Assembly: GCA_026391655.1 (NCBI GenBank)
Contig: JAPLDR010000063.1
Coordinates: 47,566 to 94,738, forward strand
Length of the DNA: 47,173 bases
Direction: 5' to 3'
From: Bacteroidia bacterium
Lineage (GTDB): Bacteria; Bacteroidota; Bacteroidia; Bacteroidales; Prolixibacteraceae
Shown piece after piece: positions 2,228 through 34,625 of this stretch. Positions within the stretch are counted from its first letter, which is position 1. Each line of letters opens with the position of its first letter. Position numbers and translations under genes: made by a program. The notes under the pieces are model-generated. The model had not been told where the DNA came from. It made no database searches and saw nothing but the letters and a program-made list of their open reading frames with translations.

Positions 2228-3340
2228 TTATCGATATCTCTGTACAATTTTCAGAGCGGCGTCAATGTCTCGTTCCGATTTAAAATCCACATTGATGTGC
2301 ATCCCCTGATTTCCAACGTTATCTATCAAGGGTTCAAGTTCATCAAGCGTTACCCAGTTTGCCATGACTGATTTTCCTCCGGCAAGGATTCGTTTATACA
2401 GATCGTACCAGCAAGGATTACCACCTTGAGGTTCGCCAACTCCGGGTGTCCATTGAATGGCATTCAACTCATCAATTTCGAGGATGGCATCCAGGTGACG
2501 TTGTGCTCCAACACCGTCCAGATGGTATAAGGTATATTCAATTTTTTTCGCCTGTTCACGTATATATGGCTGGACAAACCGACGGAAATCATCTTCGGAA
2601 ATCATAATCGAAATGTCAGACTGAAGCTTAGAAACTTTGCCCGGTGCCCAAAGGGAAAAGTAGCAGAAAGCCATTTCATCGCCTTCGCGGATGACATCAT
2701 AAATGCGGTCAAATACCTGAAAATAAACATCATTCACCTTTTGAAGCTGCATTTCGAGCTCCTCAGGTTGCATAATCATGTCCATCATCACATCCTGTGT
2801 TCCATGGATACTTGCCAGAATATCCAGGCCTTCAATCAAATCCGGACAACCCACGTAATATTTGCCTGCTGAATTTGCCTTGCAGGCTTTCAATAAGTCA
2901 AGATGCAACTTCCACCAGGGATTGTTTTCGTCAAGTTCCAGCCTCAGTTCACCACCTTCCTGTTGACGAATCCAGATGGTATCTTTCCCGCCTTCAAGTT
3001 CAGCACCCATCATAGATGCGAGCGAACCTGGTCCCAGGTGTGTGTTGGCAATTGGTAAGATGTCGGCTTTGAATGAGCTACGCGATAATTGATAATGAAG
3101 GTTTTCGGCCCGCCATTGCGGATCGAACCAGTATTGTTTTAAGTCAAGGGCAGGTACCGGAGGAGACACCGGTTGATGCGGCTTTCCTTCTTTCTGCAGG
3201 TGTTCCCACATACTCAGCACAATTCCTTTGCCGTTCCACCAATCGATGTAATGTCTTTTTGATTCTTTGAGGTTTTCTTTCCACCCTAACCCCTCCTTAG
3301 GAGGGGAACACTGCATTCGAGTTTTATCGGTAGTATTCAT
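2228..3340 (-). CDS. URO-D/MtaA-fold protein 1 (Cys-less metal site)
   Basis: A 370-residue cytoplasmic protein (no signal peptide) of the uroporphyrinogen decarboxylase superfamily, which holds HemE and the zinc methyltransferases MtaA/MtbA/CmuA. It lacks the HemE N-terminal PVWxMRQAGRY motif, so it is not a haem enzyme. The superfamily's HxC motif is replaced by H273-L-D275 (LYHLDGVGA), and the position of the third ligand by H348 (GMHINVD). Among the four URO-D-like proteins here it is the only one without a cysteine at the presumed metal site. An ATG at 3340 is preferred over the TTG at 3349. The first ~20 residues (CSPPKEGLGW) are read from a REP-like palindrome, so this N-terminus may be a late addition or the real start may lie further in. 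A 101-bp repeat ends 16 bp upstream. Function unknown; the sugar context suggests a sugar or methyl-group role. Confidence 0.75.
   Translation of the reverse strand: MNTTDKTRMQCSPPKEGLGWKENLKESKRHYIDWWNGKGIVLSMWEHLQKEGKPHQPVSPPVPALDLKQYWFDPQWRAENLHYQLSRSSFKADILPIANTHLGPGSLASMMGAELEGGKDTIWIRQQEGGELRLELDENNPWWKLHLDLLKACKANSAGKYYVGCPDLIEGLDILASIHGTQDVMMDMIMQPEELEMQLQKVNDVYFQVFDRIYDVIREGDEMAFCYFSLWAPGKVSKLQSDISIMISEDDFRRFVQPYIREQAKKIEYTLYHLDGVGAQRHLDAILEIDELNAIQWTPGVGEPQGGNPCWYDLYKRILAGGKSVMANWVTLDELEPLIDNVGNQGMHINVDFKSERDIDAALKIVQRYR
3290..3306. repeat. Palindromic GGAGGGG repeat inside a CDS start
   Basis: Perfect 17-base palindrome CCCCTCCT-T-AGGAGGGG followed by TTAGGG on the minus strand. 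It is translated as part of the N-terminus of the URO-D-like gene. One of five related GC-rich elements in the window (also about 4275, 8986, 9117 and 34656), each at the edge of a URO-D-like or GH31 gene. Confidence 0.65.
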
Positions 3341-3356
3341 GTTTTTCAATGTATTT

Positions 3357-3457
3357 AGGGGATTTAAAATTAATAATTCCAGTCTTGCTTCTATATTGGT
3401 ATGATTTACAATTATGTAATTTATTTAAGAATCGGAAATAAATATTTTAAATCCCCT
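3357..3457. repeat. MITE-like repeat, copy 1 (101 bp)
   Basis: AT-rich element bounded by 14-bp terminal inverted repeats: it begins AGGGGATTTAAAAT and ends with the complement ATTTTAAATCCCCT. It differs from copy 2 (4134-4238) by three substitutions and one 4-bp indel (ATTG), in the same orientation. It contains an internal palindrome TTACA-ATTA-TGTAA. It lies just upstream of the URO-D-like gene, where it could also supply leader or promoter sequence. Confidence 0.75.
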
Positions 3458-3493
3458 TACTTGTTTCTGTATACCGTTCATTTCTGACAGGTA

Positions 3494-3558
3494 GCGGCAG
3501 AGCCGCAAAATATTTGTAGCAAAAAGCCGATTGAAAGCTGGGAAAGGTGCAGCGCACC
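3494..3558. repeat. REP hairpins left of the IS200-like gene
   Basis: Two short perfect stems: GCGGC-AGA-GCCGC at 3494-3506 and GGTGC-AGC-GCACC at 3546-3558. Each is followed by an AAATATTT-type tail. The second recurs in inverted orientation on the other side of the transposase gene (4058-4070 and 4110-4122). Confidence 0.7.
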
Positions 3559-3565
3559 GAAATAT

Positions 3566-4042
3566 TTATTCCCACCTCACATCATCGAAAAATTCGAATA
3601 CATATTCATCCTTGAATTCAATTTCATTCTTACGGAGTATTTCCAAATATTCTTCCCTGAATGATTTTTTCTGATGATGGGTCTCCTGGTTCATGATGTA
3701 TTTTACAACTGCATCAATCTGAGAATGAGAGTATGTGAATGCCCCATACCCTTTTTGCCATTCAAATTTGAATTTTGATAAGTTTCCCTTCTTGATCCAT
3801 GCATTACTTGAAGTTTTTATTTCTTCAACTAAATCGGGAATTAGTTGACTGATTTGGTAGCCTATAAAAATGTGGATATGGTCGGGCATGGCATTTATAG
3901 CCAAAAGTTTGTGTTTGTGATTTTGAACAATGCCGGTTATATACATTTCTAATTCATTTTTCCATGATTTTTTTATCAGGGCATCTCTGTTTTTTACAGC
4001 AAATACGAGCTGAAAATAACACTGTGTGTATGTGTTTGCCAT
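3566..4042 (-). CDS. IS200-type Y1 (HUH) transposase
   Basis: A 158-residue single-strand DNA transposase. The HUH metal motif is PDHIHIFIG, and the expected catalytic tyrosine lies in the later GYGAFTYSHSQIDAVVKYI stretch (by family likeness). The usual IS200/IS605 TnpA is 130-160 residues, so it appears intact. The start MANTYTQCYFQLVFAVK at 4042 is chosen over a GTG at 4069 because homologous proteins begin this way and the GTG lies inside a REP hairpin. There is no tnpB accessory gene. It is inserted between the GH31 gene and URO-D-like gene 1, in their orientation, and probably unrelated to sugar use. Confidence 0.85.
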   Translation of the reverse strand: MANTYTQCYFQLVFAVKNRDALIKKSWKNELEMYITGIVQNHKHKLLAINAMPDHIHIFIGYQISQLIPDLVEEIKTSSNAWIKKGNLSKFKFEWQKGYGAFTYSHSQIDAVVKYIMNQETHHQKKSFREEYLEILRKNEIEFKDEYVFEFFDDVRWE

Positions 4043-4057
4043 TATGAAAAATATTAC

Positions 4058-4122
4058 GGTGCGCTGCACCTTCAGTGTGTATTACATTATCTAAACTACA
4101 AATATAACCGGTGCGCTGCACC
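4058..4122. repeat. REP hairpins right of the IS200-like gene
   Basis: GGTGCGCTGCACC occurs at 4058-4070 and again at 4110-4122, the second preceded by ACAAATATA. Both are in the orientation opposite to the copy at 3546-3558. Confidence 0.7.
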
Positions 4123-4133
4123 TTTTTCAGTTT

Positions 4134-4238
4134 AGGGGATTTAAAATTTATAATTCCAGTTTTGCTTCTATATTGATTGGTATGATTTACAATTATGTAA
4201 TTTATTTAAGAATCAGAAATAAATATTTTAAATCCCCT
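4134..4238. repeat. MITE-like repeat, copy 2 (105 bp)
   Basis: Second copy of the element at 3357-3457, with the same AGGGGATTTAAAAT terminal inverted repeats and the same orientation, and an extra ATTG in the middle. It lies 12 bp beyond the GH31 stop codon. The two copies bracket the IS200-like unit, leaving 676 bp between them. Confidence 0.75.
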
Positions 4239-4250
4239 CATTTGTCTTTT

Positions 4251-6548
4251 TCAATTATCCGAAGGTTCTTTATTCCTCCCATCCGACGAGGTTAGGAGGG
4301 GCTCCAGTACTTTTTCAATTCCGTGATAACTTTCATCAAATTTTATAGAAACTGCTTTCGATAAATCCATCTCGTCAGTATTACTTACAGGATACGGATA
4401 AACAGAAACGACCGATTTGTATTTTACCCAGACAGGCATTTCATCCAGCGGGCATTCAAAATCATTCAGCCAGCATTTCCCCTTCGTGATTTTCCCGCTG
4501 AACAGGTTTACCCAGGTTCCTTCCGGAAGATAAACATCGCGCCGGTTTTCGCTGTTCATCACGGGAGCCACCAGAAAATCATCACCGAAATAATACTGAT
4601 TATCAATGTGCCAGCACATTTTATCATCCGGATGGTGGAAAATCAGCGCCCGAATCATTGGATAACCCGAAGTGGTAATTTTTTTGCTCTGTTCCACAAT
4701 GTATGGAATCAGCGCATAACGCAACTTCAGCCATTTACGGACAATTCCCGATATGGCCGGATATTCATACGGTTCGCGTTTCGAGGTTCCGTGGTAACGC
4801 AGATGAGACGAGAAGACCCCAAACTGGGTCCAGCGTACATACAAATCATCGGGAACAACCGAGTTCATAAAGTTGGGAACACTGTGGAAACCCGGTACAT
4901 CGTGGCTCCAAAAGCCAAAACCTGACAATCCAATGTGCAAACCACCTTTCAATGATCCAGCCAGTCCGTCCCACGAGCAGGCCGAGTCGCCACCCCAGTG
5001 CAGCGGATAACGCTGGCAGCCAGCCCATCCGGCACGTGCCCAAATGATACCATCGCCCGTCACCTCTTTTGTAATTTCAAAAGCGGCTTTCTGGTACAGC
5101 AACGCATATAAATTATTGAGCAATTCAGGTTTCATCGCATGGTAATCGGCATCCATATGAATATCTTCGCCAAAATCGGTTTTGATACACACTACACCCA
5201 TTTTAAGCAGATTTCGGAGCAGATTTTTATACCATTCAACAGCCTCAGGATTAGTAAAGTCAATGGTTCCGGCATAATCCAGCGCACTGAAATTCGAGCC
5301 ACCCTGCTTTTCTGTCTTTTTCAGGATGCACATGTATTTGTTTTCCAGCGCTTCATCATGCTGCGCTGCTTTTGCCGCAATGTAGGGCATTTGCCACAAG
5401 CTGACTTTGAAACCGTCTTTCCGCAGATCCTTAATAAATTGTTTCGGATCGGGAAAACGTTCAGGATTGAATTTCCATTCGCAGAGCCAGTCAGTAATGA
5501 ACCAACCCGTATCGAGATGGATTACATCGCAGGGATAATCTTCGTCGCGAAGCCGTTTGCATATTCTGTTGACTTCATCGGCTGAAAAGTAGCTCATGCG
5601 GCTCATCCAGGTACCGAAACTCCACAGGGGAAGTATAGCTGGAAATCCTGTAAGACAACGATATCCGTATAGAATTTCTTCAGGGTTATCGCCACCAATC
5701 AGGAACACATCCATAGCCGGTTCTTCGGTAAGCAATTGCACCGATCGTGTTGAGTGGTCGGCCAGTGAAAACTTTGAATGTGCTGTGGTATGCATAAACA
5801 ATCCGTACATCCTGCCCGAAAGAAAAAATGGTATATTTTTGTATGTGCGACGGTTGTTTACGCCTTGTCCATCCTGGTTTTTAAGCTGAAAAGTGTGACC
5901 CGACAAGTCCATCTTCGTGAAGCGTTCACCGGTTCCGACAAATTTTTCATCTGCCTGAGCATGAAACGACATCGTGGTTCGGTGGCATTTCCCATTTTTC
6001 TCCACAAAAGCCAGGGCAAATGCATCGTGTCGCGCCGGAAAAAACTGGTCGTATGCACTCAGTTTGATTTCCTTTTTCCCATCCGGAAAGAATGACAGAT
6101 CCAGGGTTTCCTCCGGAATTGGCAGCAGGTCACTCCAATGATCGATAACCAGTGGTCTGCGATTTAAACACGCGCGAATGATACCGTTTGAATCTTTCAC
6201 CAGCCATTCATCGTCAGTTTTTTCAACCTGAAGCGGAATGACGCACAGCTTCTTATGTATTTCCAGCATCAGAGAATCGGGCATGGGAGGAGTTCCAAAA
6301 CCAATGGCCACGCGAAGAATTTTATTTCCGTAGGCACGAATCCTAAGGAAATAGTTTTTCCGTGCAGTTTCCGGGTCGGGAGCTATATCGTTGGCCACTT
6401 TTTGCTTCTGAAACGGGATTTCGAGCACCACATCCGTTCCATCCACCTGAATGGAAACAGGGGCGCAGGTTTTCCACAGAACATCTTCGCCGGTCAAAGC
6501 CGTATCAAAATCCATGAAGTCAAAAAGTTGAAAATTAGTTTGTTTCAT
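4251..6548 (-). CDS. GH31 alpha-xylosidase-type glycosidase
   Basis: A 765-residue retaining alpha-glycosidase close to the YicI/alpha-xylosidase branch of GH31. There is no signal peptide, so it acts in the cytoplasm on imported oligosaccharides. Domains: N-terminal beta-sandwich (to about residue 300), (beta/alpha)8 barrel (about 305-640) and C-terminal beta domains. The catalytic nucleophile is D458 in KTDFGE and the acid/base is D521 in HWGGDSACSW, which match D416 and D482 of E. coli YicI. The adjoining MFS transporter may supply its substrate. The last ~15 residues (LLTSSDGRNKEPSDN) are read from a REP-like palindrome, so the C-terminus has been extended or altered by a repeat. Activity on alpha-xylosides is inferred; alpha-glucosidase is the alternative. 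Confidence 0.88.
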   Translation of the reverse strand: MKQTNFQLFDFMDFDTALTGEDVLWKTCAPVSIQVDGTDVVLEIPFQKQKVANDIAPDPETARKNYFLRIRAYGNKILRVAIGFGTPPMPDSLMLEIHKKLCVIPLQVEKTDDEWLVKDSNGIIRACLNRRPLVIDHWSDLLPIPEETLDLSFFPDGKKEIKLSAYDQFFPARHDAFALAFVEKNGKCHRTTMSFHAQADEKFVGTGERFTKMDLSGHTFQLKNQDGQGVNNRRTYKNIPFFLSGRMYGLFMHTTAHSKFSLADHSTRSVQLLTEEPAMDVFLIGGDNPEEILYGYRCLTGFPAILPLWSFGTWMSRMSYFSADEVNRICKRLRDEDYPCDVIHLDTGWFITDWLCEWKFNPERFPDPKQFIKDLRKDGFKVSLWQMPYIAAKAAQHDEALENKYMCILKKTEKQGGSNFSALDYAGTIDFTNPEAVEWYKNLLRNLLKMGVVCIKTDFGEDIHMDADYHAMKPELLNNLYALLYQKAAFEITKEVTGDGIIWARAGWAGCQRYPLHWGGDSACSWDGLAGSLKGGLHIGLSGFGFWSHDVPGFHSVPNFMNSVVPDDLYVRWTQFGVFSSHLRYHGTSKREPYEYPAISGIVRKWLKLRYALIPYIVEQSKKITTSGYPMIRALIFHHPDDKMCWHIDNQYYFGDDFLVAPVMNSENRRDVYLPEGTWVNLFSGKITKGKCWLNDFECPLDEMPVWVKYKSVVSVYPYPVSNTDEMDLSKAVSIKFDESYHGIEKVLEPLLTSSDGRNKEPSDN
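4275..4304. repeat. GGAGGGG-type repeat inside the GH31 C-terminus
   Basis: The stretch CTCCCATCC-GACGAGG-TTAGGAGGGG is a member of the same GC-rich family as 3290-3306 and encodes the tail of the GH31 protein. The palindrome is imperfect here. Confidence 0.5.
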
Positions 6549-6586
6549 TAGTTGCAGTCGATTCTAATTTCAATATTAAAACATTT

Positions 6587-7855
6587 TTAATGCAATTGAA
6601 TTTTCTGATGGTCGTCAACCAGCAAATGCAGCGACAACCAGCACAAGAGATAAGCTACGCTGGCAATTCCGAAAATCACATAGTAAGTGCCAGTAAATTC
6701 AAGGATTAGTCCTGCTGCTCCGGAAAACAATACACCCCCGATTGCACCGGCAAACCCGGAAAGGCCGACTACCGAACCCACAGCATTCTTAGGATAGATA
6801 TCGGAAACTATGGTGAAAATATTGGCAGCATACCCCTGATGTGCAAAAGTAGCCAGTGAAATCAAGGCAACGGCGACCCATACACTCGAAGTAAATGAGG
6901 CAAAAAAGATCGGAACAACCAGTAACGACATGTAAAAAATGGTTAGTTTCCGGGCTGCCACGGGATTTTTACCGCGGTTAATCAGAAACGACGACAACCA
7001 ACCGCCAAAGATCGAGCCTCCGATTGAAACCACATAAATCACAATAAGTGGTAATCCAATATTGATCAGGTTGATATGGTAATTTGTATTCAGAAATTTG
7101 GGGAGCCAGTACAGGAAAAACCACCAGATCGGATCGGTGAGAAACCGTGCGAGACAAATGCCCCAGGTTTGACGGTAGGAAATAATCGATTTCCATGGAA
7201 GTTTTTTTGTTTCCGGTTCCCGATCATCCTGAAGAATATAGTTTCGTTCGGTTTCTGTCAGCAGCTTTTGCGATTCAGGTTTCCGGTACAAAGGAATCCA
7301 AAACAGCAACCAGATAAATCCAAGGGCACCGGTCAAAATAAACGCCGACTGCCAGCCCCATTTTAAGGCGATGAGTGGGATTAATAAAGGAGTAATAATG
7401 GCGCCAAAGTTAGTTCCTGAATTGAAAATGCCGGTAGCTAAAGCACGTTCTTTCTTTGGAAACCATTCAGCAACAGTTTTTACGGCAGCCGGAAAATTCG
7501 CCGATTCACCAATTCCGAGTGCAAAACGTGCCAGCGAAAAAGAAAAAACACTTCGCGCAGCAGCATGTGCCATTCCGGCCAGACTCCACAAGGCAATTGA
7601 AATGATAAATCCCAGACGGGTGCCGATCTTGTCCAGCAAAGTTCCCATCGAAATCAGGCCAATGGCATAAGCTGCCTGAAAGGCCATGATAATGAATCCG
7701 TAATCAGACTCCGACCAGCCAAATTCCAGTTGTAGCTGCGGCGCCAGAATCCCCAGCACCTGACGGTCGATATAATTGATTGTCGTCGCAAAAAACAGAA
7801 GGACCACAATCCGCCAGCGGTAATTGCCGATTTTTAATGGATTAACTACTGGCAT
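6587..7855 (-). CDS. MFS transporter, ExuT-like hexuronate family
   Basis: A 422-residue inner-membrane protein with about 12 hydrophobic helices, resembling the anion:cation symporter branch (ExuT/GudP) that imports hexuronates and aldarates with protons. Family features include NYIDRQVLGILAPQLQLEFGWSESDYG in the first helix region, the loop DKIGTRLG after helix 2, and GIGESANFPAAVKTVAEWFPKKERA in helix 4-5. It overlaps the stop of URO-D-like gene 2 by 10 bp, so the two are translationally coupled; GH31 follows 38 bp later. Hexuronate specificity is inferred from the family and would suit the GH67-like lipoprotein upstream. Confidence 0.82.
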   Translation of the reverse strand: MPVVNPLKIGNYRWRIVVLLFFATTINYIDRQVLGILAPQLQLEFGWSESDYGFIIMAFQAAYAIGLISMGTLLDKIGTRLGFIISIALWSLAGMAHAAARSVFSFSLARFALGIGESANFPAAVKTVAEWFPKKERALATGIFNSGTNFGAIITPLLIPLIALKWGWQSAFILTGALGFIWLLFWIPLYRKPESQKLLTETERNYILQDDREPETKKLPWKSIISYRQTWGICLARFLTDPIWWFFLYWLPKFLNTNYHINLINIGLPLIVIYVVSIGGSIFGGWLSSFLINRGKNPVAARKLTIFYMSLLVVPIFFASFTSSVWVAVALISLATFAHQGYAANIFTIVSDIYPKNAVGSVVGLSGFAGAIGGVLFSGAAGLILEFTGTYYVIFGIASVAYLLCWLSLHLLVDDHQKIQLH

Positions 7856-8973
7856 ATTTCTTTGATTATGTGGTATGCTTTTGTCTGTTCTTCAGGAGTT
7901 TCGCAATAGGTAACTATAACTATTTTCATTCCTGGTGTCCATAACCGGGAAACCTGTTCTTTAATGGTTTCAAGGTCGCCTACAATGCGGGCATTCAGAA
8001 CAATTCCGGTTTTTGCAAACCGATGATAAGCTTCCAGGTTGTTGGTTGCCCCCGGATCGGTCTGCGGCGAAAAAGCTGCATCAGTCATCTTCAACCCTTT
8101 CATTTTCAGAACAGAATCAATCCAACCTGACCAGTCGCCACACGAATGGAAGGCCGGTCCGCCCAAAGGCATACAAATTTTTTCAACGTAAGGAGCTGCA
8201 AGTTCTGAATATTGTTCCGGCGAAATCATGATCGCGTTATCGTCGCTCATGCCAAGGCCACTCCATTTTGTTGAAGATGCAAACCCATGTCCGGGAGAAG
8301 CCAGTGCGCTGCCAATCAGCTTTATCTGCTCCCGATTGAACCGGTTAGACAAATCAGAAAGTTTATCAAAAAGTTGCTTAACTTTTTCCGGTTCCATCAG
8401 AATATCCATGAAAAACTGATCGAGCAGCAGTAAATGTCCAATCATATTCAAAGGCGATTGCGTATCGGTCAGTGAAACAGGTAAGCAACCTTTTGTCTGA
8501 TCCATGAAATATTCGATCATATTCAGGGTATGCCGGCCAATGTTGGTTGTTGCAATCTCCTGTGGTTCATATATCAGCACTTCATCAAGCGACGAAAAGC
8601 GCGTTTTCAGGGCAGGCGCATTTCCTTCAGGCCAGATATAATCACCGCCAAAAGCGCTCGCCACTGTCCCGATTCCATACCATGGTTCAAGAAAATTAGG
8701 AACATCTGCCTTAAATATCATGCTCTTCTCCAAAGCACCAAGCTGAAGTTCGAGCGAACGTTTCATGTCGCGGCAACCAAATGAAAAACATTCACCCACA
8801 CGCATCCGACGGTAAACAGCCACTCCCGATTTCTGTTCCCGGAAGGATGCACAGGTTTGATTCAATTCAGCAGCATATTCTTCATATTTTTCAAAATCGA
8901 AATTCTCCGGTTTCACAGGTAGAACCTGTGTAGACTGAGCATCTGCCAACTGAGTATCAAATTTTTTTGCCAT
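7846..8973 (-). CDS. URO-D/MtaA-fold protein 2 (HxC + Cys site)
   Basis: A 375-residue cytoplasmic protein of the URO-D superfamily and not HemE (no PVWxMRQAGRY). Presumed zinc ligands of the MtaA type: H276-S-C278 (PAFHSCGDW) and C357 (VTYCETPEE), about 79 residues apart. The spacing matches the H239-x-C241...C319 set I recall for MtaA. The ATG at 8973 has a strong purine-rich upstream sequence (GGGGGAGGTT). The upstream TTG at 8994 is rejected because MEGKGEV would be read from a GC-rich palindrome. It overlaps the MFS gene by 10 bp, suggesting that this protein and the imported compound belong together. No corrinoid-binding protein is visible, so a methyl-transfer role is only a hypothesis. 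Confidence 0.75.
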   Translation of the reverse strand: MAKKFDTQLADAQSTQVLPVKPENFDFEKYEEYAAELNQTCASFREQKSGVAVYRRMRVGECFSFGCRDMKRSLELQLGALEKSMIFKADVPNFLEPWYGIGTVASAFGGDYIWPEGNAPALKTRFSSLDEVLIYEPQEIATTNIGRHTLNMIEYFMDQTKGCLPVSLTDTQSPLNMIGHLLLLDQFFMDILMEPEKVKQLFDKLSDLSNRFNREQIKLIGSALASPGHGFASSTKWSGLGMSDDNAIMISPEQYSELAAPYVEKICMPLGGPAFHSCGDWSGWIDSVLKMKGLKMTDAAFSPQTDPGATNNLEAYHRFAKTGIVLNARIVGDLETIKEQVSRLWTPGMKIVIVTYCETPEEQTKAYHIIKEICQ

Positions 8974-8985
8974 AACCTCCCCCTT

Positions 8986-9002
8986 CCCCTCCAAAGGAGG
9001 GG
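8986..9002. repeat. Palindromic GGAGGGG repeat before URO-D-like gene 2
   Basis: Perfect inverted repeat CCCCTCC-AAA-GGAGGGG located 13 bp upstream of the ATG at 8973. Its continuation, GAAGGGGGAGGTT, provides the purine-rich stretch directly before the start codon. Confidence 0.65.
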
Positions 9003-9078
9003 TGAAATTTGTTTATAAAATTCAATAAGCGCAACATTCTTCTTGTCAATATTTTATCTTCTTCAAATTATACTATTT

Positions 9079-10209
9079 TCACAAAATATTTTGCCAAGGC
9101 CGATTTAATTCCCTTTCCGCCAACTGGCGGAGGTTAGGGGAGGCTTCCCTTCTAAACTCTTCAACCGTTTCAAAAATGGTATCTATCCGATCGTCCGAAA
9201 CCGAATCGTCCATATTGATGCAGCAAACACCTGTCAGACAAGGATTTTCTGAGTCATGAACCAGCCGGATAATTGTTTCGCGGATTTCTTCGTGCGACTG
9301 CCGGGCAATTCCCACCGGACTCAACCGGATATTGAAAAAGGTATCAGGCAGATGCTCACGAAGTATTTTTACATCGCCGCCCCAACCCAGATCGAGGTAA
9401 TCGAGATGCGGAATTTTGGAGAAACTGGCCGCCATCCGGTGCGGATCAGGTCCGCAATAGTGAATGCCGAACGGCCGGTTTTTGCTCCATTCCTGATCAA
9501 ACGGCAACAGAAAATTTTCGTAATCTTCCTCCGAAATCATCGTATGAGAACATTCAGAATGCAGTAATACAGGCTTTTGCAGGTGTCGCACGGCCCGATT
9601 TACAGAAATGGATGTTGTGCCCGTTTCGGCCTGCAAAAATGAGGTGAATTTTTCAATGACTTTGGCAATTCCGGCAAAATAATCTTTCACTTCATCGGGT
9701 GTCATCATCATGTCGAGAAAAATATTTTCGCCGCGTAAATCCATCGCAATATTAAGTATGCCACCCCAGTTAATGTCGCCCGTGAGGTAGCCATATTTTT
9801 TCTTCAGGGAATCAGTCAGATCTTTTACCCGCTTAAATGGTACCGAACTGAATACTTTGTCAATATTAATATTCTGTAATTCCTGATGGGCAGGAAGCAC
9901 TTGCGGCGGATGAGCTTCCGAATAATTCACCTGACAGCCCATCATTTCCGAAAGTAGGAATCCTGCAGCCAGATGCACGGCCCCGATTTCAGGACGCGCT
10001 TCATTTTTGTGCTGTCCCATGCCATTTTTTCCCCAGCGTTCATAGAGAATTTTTTCCATGTGCTGTTCCTCTTCAACCCGTTTCGAAGGATGAAAAAAGA
10101 AATCGCGGTCAAAGGTGATTTTTTCGTTTTTGTTCCACCATTCCGGTGCCAGCACAATATCGACCGGTAAAACCTGATTTCCTAAAAGGGGATTATTATT
10201 GAATGTCAT
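9079..10209 (-). CDS. URO-D/MtaA-fold protein 3 (HxC + Cys site)
   Basis: A 376-residue soluble protein, the most divergent of the four URO-D-like proteins here. The presumed metal site is H250-Y-C252 (GIHYCGPDP) plus C329 or C330 (LTGVCCINMDD), 77-78 residues later, again matching MtaA-type spacing. No HemE signature and no signal peptide. The last ~20 residues (EASPNLRQLAEREL) are encoded by a REP-like element with a CCGCCA-AC-TGGCGG stem, so the natural C-terminus probably ended near EEFRR. It begins 10 bp after the lipoprotein gene and is followed by URO-D-like gene 2 after 105 bp, so the two may form a functional pair such as a two-subunit enzyme or sequential steps. The substrate cannot be read from sequence. 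Confidence 0.7.
   Translation of the reverse strand: MTFNNNPLLGNQVLPVDIVLAPEWWNKNEKITFDRDFFFHPSKRVEEEQHMEKILYERWGKNGMGQHKNEARPEIGAVHLAAGFLLSEMMGCQVNYSEAHPPQVLPAHQELQNINIDKVFSSVPFKRVKDLTDSLKKKYGYLTGDINWGGILNIAMDLRGENIFLDMMMTPDEVKDYFAGIAKVIEKFTSFLQAETGTTSISVNRAVRHLQKPVLLHSECSHTMISEEDYENFLLPFDQEWSKNRPFGIHYCGPDPHRMAASFSKIPHLDYLDLGWGGDVKILREHLPDTFFNIRLSPVGIARQSHEEIRETIIRLVHDSENPCLTGVCCINMDDSVSDDRIDTIFETVEEFRREASPNLRQLAERELNRPWQNIL
9117..9147. repeat. GC-rich palindrome in the C-terminus of URO-D-like gene 3
   Basis: Stem CCGCCA-AC-TGGCGG at 9117-9130, followed by AGGTTAGGGGAGGCTTCCC. Same family as the other GGAGGGG/TTAGGGG elements, and translated in frame. Confidence 0.6.
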
Positions 10210-10219
10210 CTGTTCATTA

Positions 10220-12946
10220 TTAATAGAAAAGCCAGTCGATAGCGGTTAAACCATTTGAACCCATCCCGGCATCGTGGATCAATATTTCCTGATCACCGTC
10301 AATGAAACCTAAAATCATTACGAGTCCCTTGCCTAAGACCAACTCATTTTTTCCTGCCGGATAATTGTATGTGTACACATTCACCGGATAAAGCCCAGGG
10401 ATATGTAACGCATTGGCAATCCGAATATCAGCTTGTCCACGATCGTTGGCCTGCGCATTTGTTTCGAGAGTTGGTGGTGCCAGAATGCTGTAACTGTTCC
10501 CATTGAAATAGCCCGCCAGCACTTTCACCGGCTTTCCATTTTCAAACCGAAGCACTGTTCCCTGATCCTGTTGTTGTTTACTGCTGAACTGAAGTCCGCT
10601 CAGGTTTCTTAGTTCTTTGGCCACCGCTTCAATCTTAAAATCTTTATCGCTGTAAACCAATTGTCCTTTCTGAAGCGGAAATGTTTTTAAACCGGAATTT
10701 AGAATTTTTACTTTTGCCGGAGTAAATGCATCAGCAACTTTAATTACATCGCCCTTCTTCTTCGATTTCAGCATTTCAACATTCCGTTTGAAATTATTCA
10801 GTTCTGCCTGATAAGGAGGCAGCAATTCTTTCCATGTTTTGTTGGTGCCGTTTGCCCCCGTAATCGGGATGCGACGTTGTGAGGTTTGCATGCTGTTGGC
10901 GTACAGGTATGTATTTTCCGTGAGTTTGACCAGTTCCGTATAATATTCCACACTTTTTTCGACCAGCGGAACCGCTTTTTCAAGGTCAGTCAAATCTTTA
11001 GAATACTGATAACGAAGTATTAACATGGCTGCTTTTACCTTTTCGGCAAAACAATTTGCAAATGCACGGTAGCAATACACATCGTTTTTCAGACGTGAAA
11101 ATTCTTCCTGATTGGCATTGACCGATTTCGCCGCTTTGTCGATGGATTCAACAGCAAACTGGCCACGTTTCACCACATCTTCAATTATTTGTGGAGGTGT
11201 TTCGCCACTGTGAGCTTCACCTTTCCATTCCTTTTCGGCATATTGCTGAAGGACTTCCTTCAAAGGACCGCTGGAATTCCAAAAATTGGAATATACATTG
11301 TATTTTTGAGGATTAACCAATTGAGCCATAAACATTCCCAACAGCATCGATTGCCTGTTTCCGTCAGAAATTCCGAAGGTTCGCAGCAATTTGGGTGAAA
11401 TCTCGCCAGTTTGCTCATAGGCTTCCAAAATGTTTTTTCCTTCGTCTCCACAAGCATAAAAATCACCCAGTTTCCGGCCCCAGAATTCAATTTCTGCCTT
11501 CCGGTCACGGTGGTAATTCCAGGCATAACGTCCCCAGGATTGGTACCATATCCAGTCACGATCCATTTCCAATTCGCGTGGTTCTGTTTTGTCGGCGCTA
11601 TAAGGCCAATCCCAGTACGAAGCCTGCGGATAAACGTGTACCCCTTTAGCTCCCTGAATATTGTGCATCGCTTTCACACATTTCTGTATAAAATCGGGCG
11701 ATCCATAGCGGAAAGGTTCCAGGTTGGCCAGAATATGTACATTCGAAATATGCACCGTGCCCAGTTCTGACAGTCCTTTCGGAATGGTTTCCCACGAATC
11801 GTGTGGTTCGTAGGTGGTCAGTGATTCACCATTGTATTTAAACATGGTGTACAGGTTCTTGTAAATGGGCAGTGCCTTTTCCATTACGCGTTTGGCATCG
11901 GTGTCGTGACCACGAAGTACTATAGGCGGTTCGTCGGTGCGCCCCAACGCTTTCAAACCATCTTTCACTCCCGGAAGTATCGTTTTGGTGAACCACTCCA
12001 CGTCATCGTCAATTGTGTTCATGGCTTCACCCAAAGTAATCAGCAAACCTACATTCGGATATTTTTCGATAAAAGCAGCGATCGACTTTTGCGTATAATC
12101 GGCAATAATCGGGATAATCGGACGTTCGCGATCCTGCGTTTTCATGTTGTTGTGTTCGGCAAAAGGCTTCGAAACAATAATATTGTAGAACATCTGGATA
12201 ATAAAAATTCCGCGTTTGTCGGCTTCTTGGGTCAAAAATGCAAACATCTCCTCATTTTTTTTGAAGGTAGCTTCATCCACTTCTACTGCGTAAGGATAAT
12301 CTTTCAGTTTCACAAGTGATGCAAACGGGTGGCCATTCCAGAGATACAATGAATTGTACCGGTTTTCAACCAGCATATCGAGGTATTTGATCCAGAGAGC
12401 TTTGTCGTAAAACCAAGGGAAATTTTCGGGAGTATATGGATATTCATACACTGTACGCCCCAGAAGATAGGTCGTTTTCTGCAAACCAATGCAAGTTCCG
12501 CGCATCAACATTTCCGGATGGTCGGTGATATTAATTTCATTTGGAAGTTTGCCGTCCATTTTTAAACGGTCGGCCAATTCCATGCAGGCGTATAGCATAC
12601 CGCTTTGGTCAGCGCCGGCAGCATAAATAATTTTTTCAGAAGATTGGATTGTAAAACCTTCTTTAGCCAGACTGTCGGGTGACCGATTTTTTTTGGCAAA
12701 TTCAGAAAGTAGTTTTCCTTTCAATGTCCCGACAATAATCTGTCTGTCAAAATTTTCTTTAACCGGTTGGTCAGCAAGCTGAACCTTATATCCCTGGGAA
12801 GTCAATGCATCGACCAGTTTCGCTACTGCAAATTTATCTTTCGGAGAAAGTTGTTCGGCAACAACTGTAACTTTTCCTTTCTGACCACATGCTGTAAAAA
12901 GAAAAAACATCACAATCATTGATAGTTGCCCCACGAATAATTTCAT
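10220..12946 (-). CDS. Lipoprotein with GH67/GH20-like architecture
   Basis: A 908-residue secreted lipoprotein: signal peptide with lipobox LFTAC (Cys20). The first ~140 residues (AKLVDALTSQGYKV...IIVGTL...GMLYACMELADRL) resemble the alpha/beta domain in front of GH20 and GH67/GH115 catalytic barrels. Residues about 145-520 look like a TIM barrel (RGTCIGLQ, NRYNSLYLWNGHPF, ADKRGIFIIQMFYN, GLLITLGEAMN). A helical region follows, then a C-terminal beta-rich part. The best acid candidates are the Glu/Asp in ITLGEAMNTIDDD, but I cannot assign catalytic residues. An alpha-glucuronidase-like activity would fit the ExuT-like transporter downstream; that is inference. It heads the left operon behind a promoter at 13072-13103. 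Confidence 0.7.
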   Translation of the reverse strand: MKLFVGQLSMIVMFFLFTACGQKGKVTVVAEQLSPKDKFAVAKLVDALTSQGYKVQLADQPVKENFDRQIIVGTLKGKLLSEFAKKNRSPDSLAKEGFTIQSSEKIIYAAGADQSGMLYACMELADRLKMDGKLPNEINITDHPEMLMRGTCIGLQKTTYLLGRTVYEYPYTPENFPWFYDKALWIKYLDMLVENRYNSLYLWNGHPFASLVKLKDYPYAVEVDEATFKKNEEMFAFLTQEADKRGIFIIQMFYNIIVSKPFAEHNNMKTQDRERPIIPIIADYTQKSIAAFIEKYPNVGLLITLGEAMNTIDDDVEWFTKTILPGVKDGLKALGRTDEPPIVLRGHDTDAKRVMEKALPIYKNLYTMFKYNGESLTTYEPHDSWETIPKGLSELGTVHISNVHILANLEPFRYGSPDFIQKCVKAMHNIQGAKGVHVYPQASYWDWPYSADKTEPRELEMDRDWIWYQSWGRYAWNYHRDRKAEIEFWGRKLGDFYACGDEGKNILEAYEQTGEISPKLLRTFGISDGNRQSMLLGMFMAQLVNPQKYNVYSNFWNSSGPLKEVLQQYAEKEWKGEAHSGETPPQIIEDVVKRGQFAVESIDKAAKSVNANQEEFSRLKNDVYCYRAFANCFAEKVKAAMLILRYQYSKDLTDLEKAVPLVEKSVEYYTELVKLTENTYLYANSMQTSQRRIPITGANGTNKTWKELLPPYQAELNNFKRNVEMLKSKKKGDVIKVADAFTPAKVKILNSGLKTFPLQKGQLVYSDKDFKIEAVAKELRNLSGLQFSSKQQQDQGTVLRFENGKPVKVLAGYFNGNSYSILAPPTLETNAQANDRGQADIRIANALHIPGLYPVNVYTYNYPAGKNELVLGKGLVMILGFIDGDQEILIHDAGMGSNGLTAIDWLFY

Positions 12947-15125: not shown

Positions 15126-15143
15126 AGTCGAGTCTATTTAGTT

Positions 15144-17963: not shown

Positions 17964-17990
17964 AAATAGTTCATTATGCTTATTTGATAA

Positions 17991-30211: not shown

Positions 30212-30238
30212 TTATTTATATTTTTAGTTTTTGAATAC

Positions 30239-30270
30239 TTCGTTTACTTTCGCTTGGTAAAATAAACGAA
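30239..30270. promoter_or_regulatory. Inverted repeat, possible DeoR operator
   Basis: TTCGTTTA (30239-30246) faces TAAACGAA (30263-30270) across a 16-bp spacer that contains CTTTCG. With a few inner pairs the arms extend to 12. TTTCG/CTTTCG repeats are usual in operators of DeoR-family regulators. It lies 28 bp upstream of the kinase start, in the only sizeable gap (142 bp) between regulator and catabolic genes. Confidence 0.4.
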
Positions 30271-30354
30271 ATATTTCGAAAGATTGAAATGAAATTGAAG
30301 AATATTTCAGGAATAGTGCATTTGAAAATAAAAGACTAATTACAAGTATGTTAA

Positions 30355-31116: not shown

Positions 31117-31146
31117 AAATCATCAAAATTATTAGCGTAATTGGAC

Positions 31147-31192
31147 AATTCTCGTGATCGAAAATTTCAAAATGCAAATATATCGATAATAA
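31147..31192 (-). promoter_or_regulatory. Promoter and operator of the deoR-led operon
   Basis: On the minus strand TATATTTG (31185-31192) is an exact match to the Bacteroidota -7 element TAnnTTTG, with a T-rich stretch about 20 bp upstream in the -33 position. Downstream, the near-palindrome AATTCTCG-TGAT-CGAAAATT (31147-31166; 7 of 8 pairs) could bind the DeoR protein. A second stem, TCGAT-AATA-ATCGA, lies just upstream of the -7 element. Confidence 0.5.
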
Positions 31193-31263
31193 TCGAAAAA
31201 AATGGAAAGAGCGTTTAAGATATCTGAATGGAAATTGTATCTGCTTTTTAAAAGTAAAACCTC

Positions 31264-33585
31264 TTATTTCTGAAAAATGCTCACAATATCTTTCCTTCGT
31301 TCTTCAGGAAAAACCTTGAGAAACTCAATTTTTCCAGCCTTTAGTTTTACTTCAACTGTAGTATTTCTTGGCGCATGCATCTTAAAATGTACATCGCGAT
31401 CTTTTGGCCAGGCTGGGAAAAGGTGGATTTTGTCCCCGTCAACCTGCAACAACATTTCCTGAATGCCGATCATGCCTGCTCCACCCCAGTTGTGATCGGG
31501 CACCCAGTCGAAACCAGGTCCCCAGAAAGCAGGGAAACGCCTTCCCGAGTCCTGCAACTTCAGGAAATTCAGCCGTGCAGCTTCTTCAGTCAAACCAAGG
31601 CGGGCGGCAAAAATATTATCCTGTTTCCAGCCCACATGACTTCGGAATTTTATAGCCTCCGAATCATATTTCCAGGTATTCAGCGCAATTTCAAGTTCGG
31701 GTTTGCCGTAACCGTAAATGCCCCAGGGAAAAACCGAGTACAATTGCGGAACTTCTACATTGTTGATGCGCTCCCACGATTTTGCAGGAGCAATAGTGGT
31801 AAAACCGTCGCAAACCCTGGTACTGATTGGGGGAATCCGTTTTAGCATATCCTGCCATTTTTCTTTTTGAATATCAGACAAATACGCGGATGGAAGTTGG
31901 AGCAAACGGTTCAAAACTGTTTTTAATCCGGCAATGGTCGAAGTGGAATTGGTGGCCATTTTATAAGTTTCACAGGCTGAACCGGGGTACAACACCAAAT
32001 GCCCATCGGAATTCAATGTTTTGATACCGCGCTGTGCTGCCAGATACTGGTAATGTTCGTCAAAAAAGGTCAGACAGCTTTCGATAAACGGAAGGTAAGC
32101 AGAAATATCTTTCGAAGCATAACGTTCGGTTTCGAGCATCATGAGGCAAAATTCCAAAGAAGTATCCCATTCGTATTCGAGCCACGCATTGTATTCCACC
32201 CCTTTATCAAAGTTGGCTGGTCGTTCCCATCCATATTCACTGCAATTGGGCAGACCGAAATTGTCCATCTGTTCGGTAAAACAAGCTCCTTTGTGCCCCC
32301 AGTAAACTTCCGATCTCAATTCGGCATTTCGCAAAATCCGCAGGTAAAAATCGAATTGCGGCTTCATCATTTCAAAATCGCCTGATTTCAGCATCGGAAA
32401 ATAAACAAGACGTTGATTTTGAGCCGTAAAAGTGCCTCCTCCCCAATTTCGAAAATCGGGTGTAAAATTGCGTGCGGCATCCGTAAAAACCGGATCGACA
32501 GTAAACAAGCCTCCGTTGAACTTAGTGGGATATTCACCAAACGCATTGCATGCCAGCATATACCGGAATAGTTGGTAATTTCGTCCGGCTTTCCATGCCT
32601 CCGGATTCGAATCCTGCTGATCTCCAATAAATACAAAACTTCGGTCCCAATATTGATGCCACCAATCCAGAGTTTTTGCATGGACTACTTTTTTATTCTT
32701 CTGGTTTTCCAGAACAATGAACTGCAATTGTTTCTTCCAGCTGTCCAGGCTCTCAGTTTGAGCACCATTCAGAACTATTTCGAATGAATGTTTCTGCGCA
32801 GCAATCTTGCTTTTCAGTAACCATCCTTTATATTCTGTGTCGAGGTATTTGCCATTATAATTTCCGGACGGAACCAGATTCTCGCCCTGCAACTTTCCAC
32901 CAAACGTCAGGTCCTTCAATGGATTGAAAAGCTGGTCTTTTACTGTATTCAATCCTTGCTGTTTTACCGTCACGTCAAAAACCGTCGGTTCCTGATTTCG
33001 GTGATAAAAAAGTAAACCATTATTCTCAAACCCGATTTCGTCTTTTAGTGTTTGTAAACCTTCCGGAACAGCCCATTTGTAAGAATTGGCAAAACCTTCC
33101 GGTTTTCGCACTTCACGGTTGACAAACCGCCAGCTTTCATAACCGGCTTCGACAGAAATTTTTCTGTTCGCGACGACTTCCACATGGATCACCGGACAAA
33201 ATACATCCACCCAAATCTGAATCTGAGCGTTCAATCCGTCTTCAATTCCGTCGATCTGCACAAAACCGTCTTTCAATTTTAATTCCTGCCTGAACTTTCC
33301 GCCATCGAAAGGATTGGGATTCAGTTTCAGCCGGATACGACCCGCTTTCAGCAAACCGTTATTTTCGTCAAAAAAACCGCTTTTTGCAATGTAGAAAAGC
33401 ACATCTCCTTTTTCAACCCACACATTCAGACCAATGTCTCCACCTCCGCAAGGCATTGATTCCGAAGAATTTTGGCTCTGACTATCCCAAACTACATTGC
33501 ACTGGTTGAGCTGCACGGGCTGGGAATAAGTCAAAACTCCGGAAAAAATCATCAGTAAAAGAACTGTAAGTATTTGTCGTATCAT
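31264..33585 (-). CDS. DUF5703/GH95-like secreted glycosidase
   Basis: A 773-residue protein with a signal peptide (VLTYSQP). The N-terminal ~280 residues are a beta-sandwich of the DUF5703 type (CNVVWDSQSQNSSESMPCGGGDIGLNVWVEKGDVLFYIAKSGFFDENN). Residues about 300-680 form an alpha/alpha-barrel like that of GH95/GH65 enzymes (YQLFRYMLACNAFGEYPTKFNGGLFTVD, EYEWDTSLEFCLMMLE). A small C-terminal beta domain follows (VQVDGDKIHLFPAWPKDRDVHFKMHAP). GH95 members remove alpha-L-fucose or alpha-L-galactose; the activity of DUF5703 proteins is not established. It overlaps the stop of URO-D-like gene 4 as ATGA, tightly coupled to the rhamnosidase block. Confidence 0.72.
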   Translation of the reverse strand: MIRQILTVLLLMIFSGVLTYSQPVQLNQCNVVWDSQSQNSSESMPCGGGDIGLNVWVEKGDVLFYIAKSGFFDENNGLLKAGRIRLKLNPNPFDGGKFRQELKLKDGFVQIDGIEDGLNAQIQIWVDVFCPVIHVEVVANRKISVEAGYESWRFVNREVRKPEGFANSYKWAVPEGLQTLKDEIGFENNGLLFYHRNQEPTVFDVTVKQQGLNTVKDQLFNPLKDLTFGGKLQGENLVPSGNYNGKYLDTEYKGWLLKSKIAAQKHSFEIVLNGAQTESLDSWKKQLQFIVLENQKNKKVVHAKTLDWWHQYWDRSFVFIGDQQDSNPEAWKAGRNYQLFRYMLACNAFGEYPTKFNGGLFTVDPVFTDAARNFTPDFRNWGGGTFTAQNQRLVYFPMLKSGDFEMMKPQFDFYLRILRNAELRSEVYWGHKGACFTEQMDNFGLPNCSEYGWERPANFDKGVEYNAWLEYEWDTSLEFCLMMLETERYASKDISAYLPFIESCLTFFDEHYQYLAAQRGIKTLNSDGHLVLYPGSACETYKMATNSTSTIAGLKTVLNRLLQLPSAYLSDIQKEKWQDMLKRIPPISTRVCDGFTTIAPAKSWERINNVEVPQLYSVFPWGIYGYGKPELEIALNTWKYDSEAIKFRSHVGWKQDNIFAARLGLTEEAARLNFLKLQDSGRRFPAFWGPGFDWVPDHNWGGAGMIGIQEMLLQVDGDKIHLFPAWPKDRDVHFKMHAPRNTTVEVKLKAGKIEFLKVFPEERRKDIVSIFQK

Positions 33586-34625
33586 GCTTTATATTCTTTT
33601 AAAGTAGAAAAAATGGCTTCGATATTTGCCGGCGGAATATCCTGTAATATGGCCTCGTGACTAGGCGACAGGATCAACCCGGTCGGAAAGATTTCCATCA
33701 ATTCGCGAACTTTTGCCCTGACATCTTCGGGCTTTTGGTTCACCAGTAAATGTTGGGCATCAATGCCTCCACAAAAAGCTACTTTCTTTTCAAAATTGGT
33801 TTTCAGCCTTTGTGGTTCCATATTAGCTGCCAATGCCTGGATTGGATGGATCACATCTGCACCCAGACGGGCCAGGTCGCCAATAATCGGGAAAATGGAA
33901 CCGCAAGAATGGTGGATCACCTTCAATCCGTAGCTTTTAGCCTGATCGATAATCTTTTTAGTACCAGGAAACACAAATTTACGCAGACTTTCCGGGTCAA
34001 CCATCAAACCAGTCTGACTACCAAAATCATTACCAATCAACACGGCATCCAGATGACCTTTGGTGGCGTCGTAGAACAACTCGTTGGCCTTAAGATAAAA
34101 ATCGGTAATCCGGTCGATCACTGCCTGAAACATTTCAGGATTCATCATCATGGTAATCAGTGCCTTTTCCATGCCAAACGCTGAACACGCATCCTGAAAA
34201 TGAGCAGACCACATCACACCCATGCTGATTTTGTCATTAGGAATTTCTTTGGCCAGTCGCAGGGATTCTTCACGTAAGACCATTCCGGAAGGATCGGGCC
34301 AGTTGAATTTGTCCACATTAGACGGATCGTCATAATCTTCGAAAAAGCCCGGAGCAGTTAAAGTCCGTTCATCCGGAGTATCGTTGTGCATTGACTTGGC
34401 AAAAGCGAAGGCACAGGCAATGTGATTGGCTGGCGGACAATTGAAAGGTACCTCGATGGGCCAGATATCGTCGCCCAGTTTTTGCTTGAGTTCGGAAACA
34501 GAAGAAACACCGAAGTGCCTGAATAAATTTTTTTCAGCCGCAGGAACGGGCAATCCAAGCCACGAAGCCGGACGATCTGTTTTTTCGTAATTGATGGTTG
34601 CAAAAAAGCGTTCTCTTGAATCCAT
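33582..34625 (-). CDS. URO-D/MtaA-fold protein 4 (HxC + His site)
   Basis: A 347-residue cytoplasmic protein, the most canonical of the four URO-D-like members. It begins DSRERFFATINYEKTDRPASW like MtaA/URO-D-like proteins and lacks the HemE signature. Presumed metal ligands: H239-S-C241 (KVIHHSCGS), in the same numbers I recall for MtaA, with H323 (LILSPSHEAI) at the place where MtaA has Cys319. Other family stretches: GADVIHPIQALAANMEPQRLK and CGGIDAQHLL. It lies between the GH106 rhamnosidase gene and the DUF5703 gene (ATGA overlap), so it is co-expressed with rhamnose release and not with haem or methanol genes. Role unknown; sugar lyase, epimerase or O-demethylase are all open. Confidence 0.78.
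   Translation of the reverse strand: MDSRERFFATINYEKTDRPASWLGLPVPAAEKNLFRHFGVSSVSELKQKLGDDIWPIEVPFNCPPANHIACAFAFAKSMHNDTPDERTLTAPGFFEDYDDPSNVDKFNWPDPSGMVLREESLRLAKEIPNDKISMGVMWSAHFQDACSAFGMEKALITMMMNPEMFQAVIDRITDFYLKANELFYDATKGHLDAVLIGNDFGSQTGLMVDPESLRKFVFPGTKKIIDQAKSYGLKVIHHSCGSIFPIIGDLARLGADVIHPIQALAANMEPQRLKTNFEKKVAFCGGIDAQHLLVNQKPEDVRAKVRELMEIFPTGLILSPSHEAILQDIPPANIEAIFSTLKEYKA

Follow-up and report, generated by a model that had tools for sequence, protein, structure and literature searches.

Four divergent URO-D-fold proteins of a Bacteroidales sugar locus as candidate donor-side enzymes in corrinoid-dependent demethylation of rhamnogalacturonan-II sugars

Why should a single sugar locus of a Bacteroidia bacterium encode four divergent proteins of the URO-D fold? 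The question is raised by a 47,173-nucleotide stretch of DNA, here called the window, from a member of the Prolixibacteraceae (Bacteroidota; Bacteroidales; GenBank assembly GCA_026391655.1, contig JAPLDR010000063.1, positions 47,566–94,738 of the forward strand). The assembly that holds it, G000 in our numbering, comprises 5.0 Mb in 149 contigs and is 96% complete. The four proteins are referred to as P1–P4. An earlier interpretation of the letters alone (the sequence-only reading) had suggested that they might take O-methyl groups off methylated sugars, for example the ones known from rhamnogalacturonan-II (RG-II), and had seen the absence of a corrinoid protein from the window as a weakness of that idea. 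RG-II of plant cell walls is described, in the excerpted text of the source, as bearing 2-O-methyl-xylose and 2-O-methyl-fucose (PMC12168206). Supported by gene fusions of P1, by linkage to corrinoid genes and by the partner genes, the proposal now appears probable in a more specific form: each of P1–P4 would serve as a methyltransferase I, the substrate-specific enzyme on the methyl-donor side, in a corrinoid-dependent system for demethylating the O-methyl sugars of RG-II. For the direction of transfer, the substrates and the methyl acceptor, this is what we infer from the genes and their surroundings.

All four genes lie on the minus strand. The coordinates given previously for P3 (9079–10209) and P4 (33582–34625) stood, but those of the other two had to be extended: P1 (2228–3349) starts with a TTG codon at 3349, 3340 being the next ATG, and P2 (7846–8994) starts at 8994, with 8973 an internal ATG. 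Against a Pfam URO-D cut-off of 23.9 bits, P4 (97.4 bits) and P2 (44.1 bits) pass, while P3 (14.0 bits) and P1 (11.6 bits) fall below. The predicted model of P1 (pLDDT 90.8) has 4ay8 as its best solved structure (E 4e-9, TM 0.59/0.64) and that of P3 (pLDDT 78.9) has 4ay7 (E 1e-9, TM 0.64/0.71); both entries are the methylcobalamin:coenzyme M methyltransferase of M. mazei, and in both searches UROD entries come next. The models support a URO-D/MtaA TIM-barrel fold shared by P1 and P3, and a profile comparison of the two gave a probability of 97.9 (E 5.5e-13, 23% identity across 261 columns). By sequence, the profiles of P1 and P2 found no relative among solved structures. The view of four divergent URO-D/MtaA-fold proteins in one sugar locus is upheld by Pfam for P2 and P4 and by the predicted fold for P1 and P3.

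As had been noted before, the HemE signature is missing from all four, and no hemE model matched at E values up to 0.1. None of the NCBIfam models for HemE, MtaA and CmuA scored above its cut-off for any of P1–P4. A HemE function was ruled out on the missing signature and the lack of an NCBIfam hemE match. Where an HxC motif is expected, P2 and P4 have HSCG, P3 has HYCG together with a CC motif, and P1 has HLDG, which its relatives keep in 7 of 7 rows of a first alignment and in 29 of 30 rows of a larger one. The later Cys of the HxC...C motif is kept in 6 of 6 rows for P3, 3 of 4 for P2 and 0 of 4 for P4. In an alignment of P2–P4, P3 and P4 with their relatives are only 13–20% identical to P2, and they are therefore not recent copies of it.

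Relatives were drawn from two samples. The order survey covers 198 genomes of the same order, the window's own included (G-numbers), and the P1 locus set consists of the best 80 of 299 P1 relatives obtained by scanning named genome records with a P1 alignment; it includes many close relatives. L-numbers denote fetched loci. The closest named P1 relatives are Bacteroidota, e.g. Gaoshiqia sediminis with 81% identity.

The evidence for a corrinoid link is strong for P1. In genome G111 a single chain of 985 aa combines a P1 relative with a homocysteine S-methyltransferase domain (448–733) and both B12-binding domains (777–972); no pterin-binding or reactivation-domain match was found in this chain. 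P1 is fused directly to a corrinoid domain in 9 of the 80 loci and to a homocysteine methyltransferase domain in 27, of which 25 are complete with a corrinoid domain and two are cut by a contig end. The complete fusions to a corrinoid domain (34/80 loci) all keep the cobalamin-ligand motif DLHDIG, and GGCC is kept in each of the 25 that include the methyltransferase domain. Their hosts are Phocaeicola, Bacteroides and Prevotellaceae. At the P. vulgatus ATCC 8482 locus the genes for GH141, GH31, the P1-corrinoid fusion and a symporter follow one another, and reactivation and MtaA-like genes adjoin on the opposite strand. A separate corrinoid gene is found 1.2–10 kb from P1 (start to start) in 25 of the 80 loci, and the fetched stretch has none in 19, some of these stretches being short (contigs of 4–7 kb). 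These numbers include a recheck at the DNA level, by which P1 was recovered beneath a longer overlapping frame in L172 and L196, and corrinoid genes absent from the gene calls of L172, L188 and L238 were counted as linked. An MtaA-like URO-D protein is encoded by a gene of its own at no fewer than 42 of the 80 loci; the annotation counts for this gene and for a protein of ∼220–260 aa described below are lower bounds, since they come from blastp against references from the same loci with genes picked by length.

The sequence-only reading had found neither a corrinoid protein nor an activator. This holds for the window, whole-genome searches giving no match on its contig, but not for the genome: B12-binding_2 matched there twice, once in a frame as long as MetH (1225 aa) and once on another contig, C136. 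C136 starts with a cluster (54–5887) whose gene order is corrinoid protein (from base 54), MtaA-like URO-D protein, second URO-D protein (546 aa), homocysteine S-methyltransferase, CobW and a stand-alone MetH-type reactivation domain. The second URO-D protein of this cluster (L007:1730–3370) continues for ∼200 C-terminal residues past its URO-D part. Two more URO-D proteins of the genome (L008:12932–13990 and L009:6855–7877) occur in other settings, judged by eye to be beside an AraC-type regulator in one case and after a beta-lactamase-like protein in the other.

A dependence of P1 on a corrinoid protein would require that genomes lacking one at the P1 locus carry it elsewhere. This prediction was tested in 22 genomes, all of which have a corrinoid gene in a frame of <330 aa whose product is 46–70% identical to that of C136. 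Three of these genes proved to be at the P1 locus itself, and the other 19 of 19 genomes have a stand-alone gene elsewhere; for comparison, at least 34 of the 198 survey genomes have a corrinoid gene, the fused one of G111 counted. Of the 22 genomes, 15 gave a reactivation gene, 12 of them from among the 19 that lack a corrinoid gene at the P1 locus, compared with strong matches in 27 of the 198. Together with the fusions, the linked genes and the gene on C136, the 19 genomes remove the missing corrinoid protein as a weakness.

Close relatives of P1–P4, i.e., those with about 50% identity or more, are rare in the order survey (P1 in 6, P2 in 4, P3 in 6 and P4 in 4 genomes, the window's included), and all four occur together in G000, G064 and G108. 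The ten genomes with such relatives belong to nine family codes. All ten have a corrinoid protein, compared with at least 24 of the 188 others, a lower bound whose true value may be slightly higher (Fisher 6e-9); a reactivation gene is present in 8 of the ten versus 19 of 188 (Fisher 1.6e-6), and RACo in 4 of the ten versus 9 of 188. The Fisher values ignore shared ancestry among the 198 genomes, which are related to one another. Left out of this test were relatives below ∼50% identity (for P1 those of G169, G084 and G045; for P2 those of G131, G007 and G072 and a second place in G000; for P3 a second place in G022; for P4 all except G000, G064, G108 and G197), weak reactivation matches in G003 and G018, and corrinoid domains in frames of 580–823 aa (G003, G018, G041 and G108:C2).

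For the local neighborhood we counted genes within 8 kb of 81 occurrences of P1, 6 of P2, 8 of P3 and 16 of P4, leaving out L183 and L184, which come from the same genomes as G064 and G019 and were kept in the counts on 80 loci. A corrinoid gene is local to P1 in at least 55 of 81 cases and to P4 in 9 of 16, and the corrinoid link of P4 is accordingly rated good. For P2 and P3 the link is indirect, resting on fold or family, co-occurrence and shared loci: no survey genome that has a close relative of P2 or P3 lacks a stand-alone corrinoid gene, and in G108 this gene lies directly downstream of P3. In a tree of corrinoid proteins (midpoint root, no outgroup, fused group thinned to 14 rows, MetH row dropped out) starred branches set the fused lineage apart from most stand-alone proteins, and the C136 protein is sister to the one that follows P3 in G108 (support 94). 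P1 is linked to members of both lineages, which suggests that it recruited a corrinoid protein more than once.

The genes around P1–P4 point to sugars. As the sequence-only reading had stated, each of the four stands beside glycosidases or transporters, and two overlap a neighbor. P1 is accompanied by a sodium/solute symporter (619–2180, minus) and a GH31 glycosidase (4251–6548, minus) in which no signal-like N terminus was seen by eye. P2 overlaps by 10 bases a gene for an MFS transporter (6587–7855, minus) related to galactonate-type transporters. P3 is next to an alpha-D-galacturonidase (10220–12946, minus; NF049878 1509.6 bits with a cut-off of 1300; 6hzf BPa0997 1092 bits), of the family named GH138. 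A GH141 gene for a relative of BT_1002 follows (13258–15125, minus). P4 overlaps by 4 bases the gene for a DUF5703 protein (31264–33585, minus) with a hydrophobic, signal-like N terminus by eye, and adjoins on its other side a GH106 alpha-L-rhamnosidase (34721–38167, minus). The DUF5703 protein matches 9hyq (991.5 bits) and 9hmb (315.1 bits), both structures of GH139, the family of 2-O-methyl-alpha-L-fucosidase (PMC12282258), and on these sequence matches it is assigned to the GH139 type. Farther along are genes for a RhaT-type sugar/proton symporter (42755–43810, minus), which is the partner of P4 in relatives, and a RhaM-type sugar mutarotase (43901–44242, minus).

The neighborhood survey suggested by the sequence-only reading returned the same kinds of partners, transporters as well as glycosidases, the GH139 type with P4 and the alpha-galacturonidase with P3 among them. 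Of the 81 cases of P1, 63 have GH31 within 8 kb, 60 the symporter and 30 GH141; at the same distance P2 has the MFS gene in 4 of 6, P3 the galacturonidase gene (908 aa product) in 5 of 8, and P4 has RhaT in 13 of 16. GH31 and P1 are direct neighbors in most annotated relatives having both; in the window an IS200-like transposase gene (PF01797, 3566–4069) is located between them. Outside the window a DUF5703 gene was found near P4 only in G064 (1/16), and in G197 the gene next after RhaT encodes an alpha-L-fucosidase. The mutarotase gene adjoins RhaT in the window and in L177, and mutarotase-domain genes are close to both P1 and P4 in relatives. At least 20 of the 80 P1 loci have a gene like L071:6348–7061, which precedes GH31 and encodes a protein of ∼220–260 aa; in L071 the second half of this protein contains a RhaM mutarotase domain.

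Two relatives bring most of these genes together. In L177 (Paludibacter sp. STD2_198) one run contains P3, P2, MFS, galacturonidase, GH31, P1, symporter and P4, and continues with mutarotase, RhaT, corrinoid protein, MtaA-like protein and reactivation protein. In L169 (Draconibacterium aestuarii) the order is the end of the galacturonidase, P3, P2, MFS, two glycosidases, GH31, P1, an oxidoreductase, symporter and P4, and this genome has two corrinoid genes, both outside the fetched stretch. In L181 genes for DUF362, an ArsP-type permease and laminin-G (14223–18404) stand between P4 and RhaT, and in L178 genes of nearly the same sizes do so (6275–10462). G014, G022 and G131 each have ten P4-like URO-D matches among the best 10 of 14–17 candidates, and these are spread over many sites, suggesting that such enzymes have radiated widely.

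The partners allow tentative assignments of substrates. For P4, as a putative demethylase component, the best guess is 2-O-methyl-L-fucose, because of the overlapping GH139-type gene, RhaT and the mutarotase. For P1 it is 2-O-methyl-D-xylose, which the GH31 enzyme would release; GH31 and GH141 near P1 (BT_1002, the relative of the latter, has a solved structure) fit 2-O-methyl-xylosyl-fucose. According to the excerpted text of PMC7939467, Bacteroides thetaiotaomicron cleaves 21 of 22 RG-II linkages, the exception being 2-O-Me-Xyl-alpha1,3-Fuc, and this disaccharide accumulates. A symporter that imports the disaccharide, a cytoplasmic GH31 and P1 would fill this gap. P2 and P3 might act on a methylated sugar acid, which is a guess from their neighbors: the MFS carrier of P2 is closest to galactonate-type carriers, and for P3 the galacturonidase is pertinent, BT0997 being called an alpha-galacturonidase that acts on chain A in the same source (PMC7939467).

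A pathway can be proposed on this basis. Secreted glycosidases, as suggested by families and N termini, would release methylated sugars or a disaccharide, and each would enter by its own transporter, namely the symporter for P1, RhaT with the mutarotase for P4 and the MFS carrier for P2; these transporters are linked to the respective genes, and the cargoes are presumed. Cytoplasmic GH31 would then cut off 2-O-methyl-xylose for P1, and GH139 would yield 2-O-methyl-fucose for P4. Each URO-D protein would transfer the methyl group to the Co(I) centre of a common corrinoid protein and leave an ordinary sugar. The tie of this step to corrinoid comes from all three of fusion, linkage and co-occurrence for P1, from the last two for P4, and mainly from co-occurrence for P2 and P3. 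From the methyl-corrinoid the group would go to homocysteine to give methionine, a transfer assigned to the PF02574 domain and possibly also to the MtaA-like URO-D protein; the domains and motifs for this reaction are present, and the MtaA-like protein of P1 loci may be a second acceptor enzyme. Because the homocysteine domain occupies the acceptor side of the three-domain fusion, the donor side is expected to fall to P1. Inactivated cobalamin would be restored by the separate MetH-type reactivation protein, for which the genes exist, and not by a RACo-type one. It seems somewhat more plausible than not that anaerobes in soil, in sediment and in the human gut obtain methionine in this way, straight from pectin methyl ethers: a MetH-like enzyme (in Prevotella one chain that joins the sugar demethylase to homocysteine methyltransferase and B12 domains) would demethylate 2-O-methyl-xylose, and sister enzymes would bring in 2-O-methyl-fucose and methylated sugar acids by way of the same corrinoid protein.

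Several observations count against assigning P1–P4 to the donor side of RG-II demethylation. The HxC motif binds the zinc that activates the thiol acceptor in MtaA-like enzymes, and by keeping it P2–P4 may be capable of acceptor-side work; P1, with HLD at this place, lacks it. CdmB and a Moorella demethylase are said to work without zinc (excerpt of PMC13222342), so the missing HxC would be no obstacle for P1. P4 has SPSH at the position of APGC in MtaA, and the aromatic O-demethylase motif E-X14-E-X20-H, known from some of these enzymes, occurs in none of the four. The corrinoid gene is within 8 kb in 0 of 6 cases for P2 and 1 of 8 for P3, and P1–P4 and the corrinoid cluster are on separate contigs in the window's genome, C136 starting at the cluster. 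Where the P1 locus has no corrinoid gene nearby, the reactivation search gave no match in 7 of 19 genomes. Unlike known O-demethylase systems, the window's genome gave no RACo-type activator in a search with PF14574; such an activator was therefore rejected for this genome, whose reactivation gene is of the MetH type. The corrinoid protein may serve mainly other substrates, since at least 24 of the 188 genomes without close P1–P4 relatives also have one. The symporter of P1 and the GH141 gene are each read in two frames, with frame changes at about 1620–1630 and 14860–14890, respectively, so that both are disrupted in this sequence, through either sequencing error or decay. A near relative of the GH31 protein in the PDB is an 'alpha-glucosidase' (5f7c), and the family also has glucosidase members. 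The 5f7c enzyme is from B. thetaiotaomicron.

These points bear on four other explanations. The system might be of the right kind but act on sugars other than the 2-O-methyl sugars of RG-II, such as 4-O-methyl-glucuronate, 3-O-methyl-rhamnose or the methylated sugars found in arabinogalactan or in glycans of microbes. The GH31 family is broad, the galactonate-type carrier next to P2 would suit a sugar acid, the partner of P3 releases galacturonic acid by family, and the P2 locus of G176, with GH88, a BNR-repeat protein and a melibiase-like gene, is unlike the set in the window. The GH139-type partner and RhaT of P4 nevertheless indicate 2-O-methyl-fucose, and GH31 and GH141 at P1 fit 2-O-methyl-xylosyl-fucose, so that we regard other sugars as unlikely, though worth keeping in mind. 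Alternatively, all four could methylate thiols (homocysteine or another) from methyl-corrinoid as MtaA does, with sugar demethylation left to something else. This would agree with the HxC motifs and with the methylcobalamin:coenzyme M methyltransferase as the nearest solved fold of P1 and P3, but the acceptor role is already filled by the homocysteine methyltransferase domain of the three-domain fusions, an MtaA-like gene is separately present at many P1 loci, P1 is without HxC, and four such enzymes each with its own sugar partner would make little sense. We judge this distinctly improbable.

The position in a sugar locus could also be incidental, with methyl groups drawn from methoxylated phenolics or methyl-thiol compounds, as known UroD-superfamily methyltransferases use methoxylated aromatics, haloalkanes and methyl-sulphur compounds (excerpts of PMC13222342 and PMC10418091). 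Since in relatives every one of the four has a glycosidase or sugar transporter as its partner, mutarotase-domain genes stand near P1 and P4, and no aromatic-catabolic gene was recognised among the scanned neighbors, such donors have very little in their favor. Least credible of all is that no methyl chemistry takes place and that these are other URO-D-fold sugar enzymes (an isomerase, lyase or decarboxylase), the corrinoid link being confined to the P1 lineage. HxC motifs are no proof of methyl transfer, and the near absence of local corrinoid genes from P2 and P3 would be expected; the frequent corrinoid genes beside P4 as well as P1, the stand-alone corrinoid gene in every survey genome with a close P2 or P3 relative, and the relationship of P1 to P3 at the profile level all argue the other way. 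Donor-side demethylation of RG-II sugars is thus the interpretation we retain.

The window contains a further group of sugar genes. Between 21164 and 31116 are an ABC sugar transporter (RbsC-, RbsA- and RbsB-like) with DUF2291, a transketolase split over two genes and a protein whose C-terminal domain is that of an L-fucose isomerase. The same interval encodes an FGGY kinase and a DeoR-type regulator, and an apiosidase-type gene is located at 17991–19649. Together these genes look like a cassette for apiose or another branched pentose.

If the proposal is correct, it would provide an oxygen-free route for the removal of O-methyl groups from sugars and add the step that is absent from B. thetaiotaomicron, where 2-O-methyl-xylosyl-fucose goes unused. 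Sugar ethers would join the known donors of corrinoid methyltransferases, dietary pectin would be tied to bacterial methionine and B12 demand, and part of the large set of uroporphyrinogen-decarboxylase-related proteins would gain a function. Named hosts of P1 relatives include Phocaeicola vulgatus ATCC 8482, Bacteroides faecis MAJ27 and a Dysgonomonas sp. In the titles and abstract beginnings of the open-licence papers covered by our literature search we found no corrinoid-dependent sugar demethylation and no description of the opening of RG-II methyl ethers without oxygen. The only sugar ether case there was the porphyran route, in which a cytochrome P450 demethylates 6-O-methyl-galactose oxidatively (excerpt of PMC10033563). 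That route likewise removes an O-methyl group from a sugar during polysaccharide use, but it is oxidative, formaldehyde is released, and the proteins are unrelated to those described here (PMC10033563).

Relative to known corrinoid O-demethylation, we propose that the substrate class, the partners and the fused architecture are new. In the excerpted text of PMC13222342, MtvB, OdmB, VdmB and MtoB are aromatic O-demethylases of the UroD superfamily and CdmB is a chloromethane enzyme; these systems likewise combine a UroD-superfamily methyltransferase I with a corrinoid protein and a methyltransferase II, some of them zinc-free. In the present case glycosidases and sugar transporters are the partners instead, a homocysteine methyltransferase gene stands for the acceptor side, fusion of the donor enzyme to the corrinoid domain is common, and reactivation seems to be of the MetH kind. 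The type 1 mlp gene clusters (Kountz and Balskus), in the excerpt of PMC10418091, also combine a corrinoid protein with several MtaA-like UroD proteins, and the C136 cluster is similar. They encode a Ram/RACE activator, however, and are interpreted as methyl-sulphur or selenium systems (PMC10418091), whereas P1–P4 are distant from MtaA (best match of P4, E 0.025) and sited with glycosidases.

A further parallel is MtgBCDE of Ruegeria pomeroyi, which couples glycine betaine demethylation to methionine synthesis and is described in the excerpt of PMC12478193 as a multi-subunit methionine synthase with a corrinoid core, a homocysteine methyltransferase module and separate demethylases. MtgB is a pfam06253 protein acting on a quaternary amine (PMC12478193), whereas the demethylases proposed here have the URO-D fold and their donor would be a sugar ether. 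The fusion of G111 differs from MetH in having a URO-D domain in the place of the pterin-binding one and in giving no reactivation-domain match. The homocysteine domain, the B12 domains and the reactivation-domain protein of MetH are nonetheless all represented, and the whole would amount to a methionine synthase in pieces, in which sugar demethylases replace the folate domain and the shared parts, in the window's genome, are encoded on C136.

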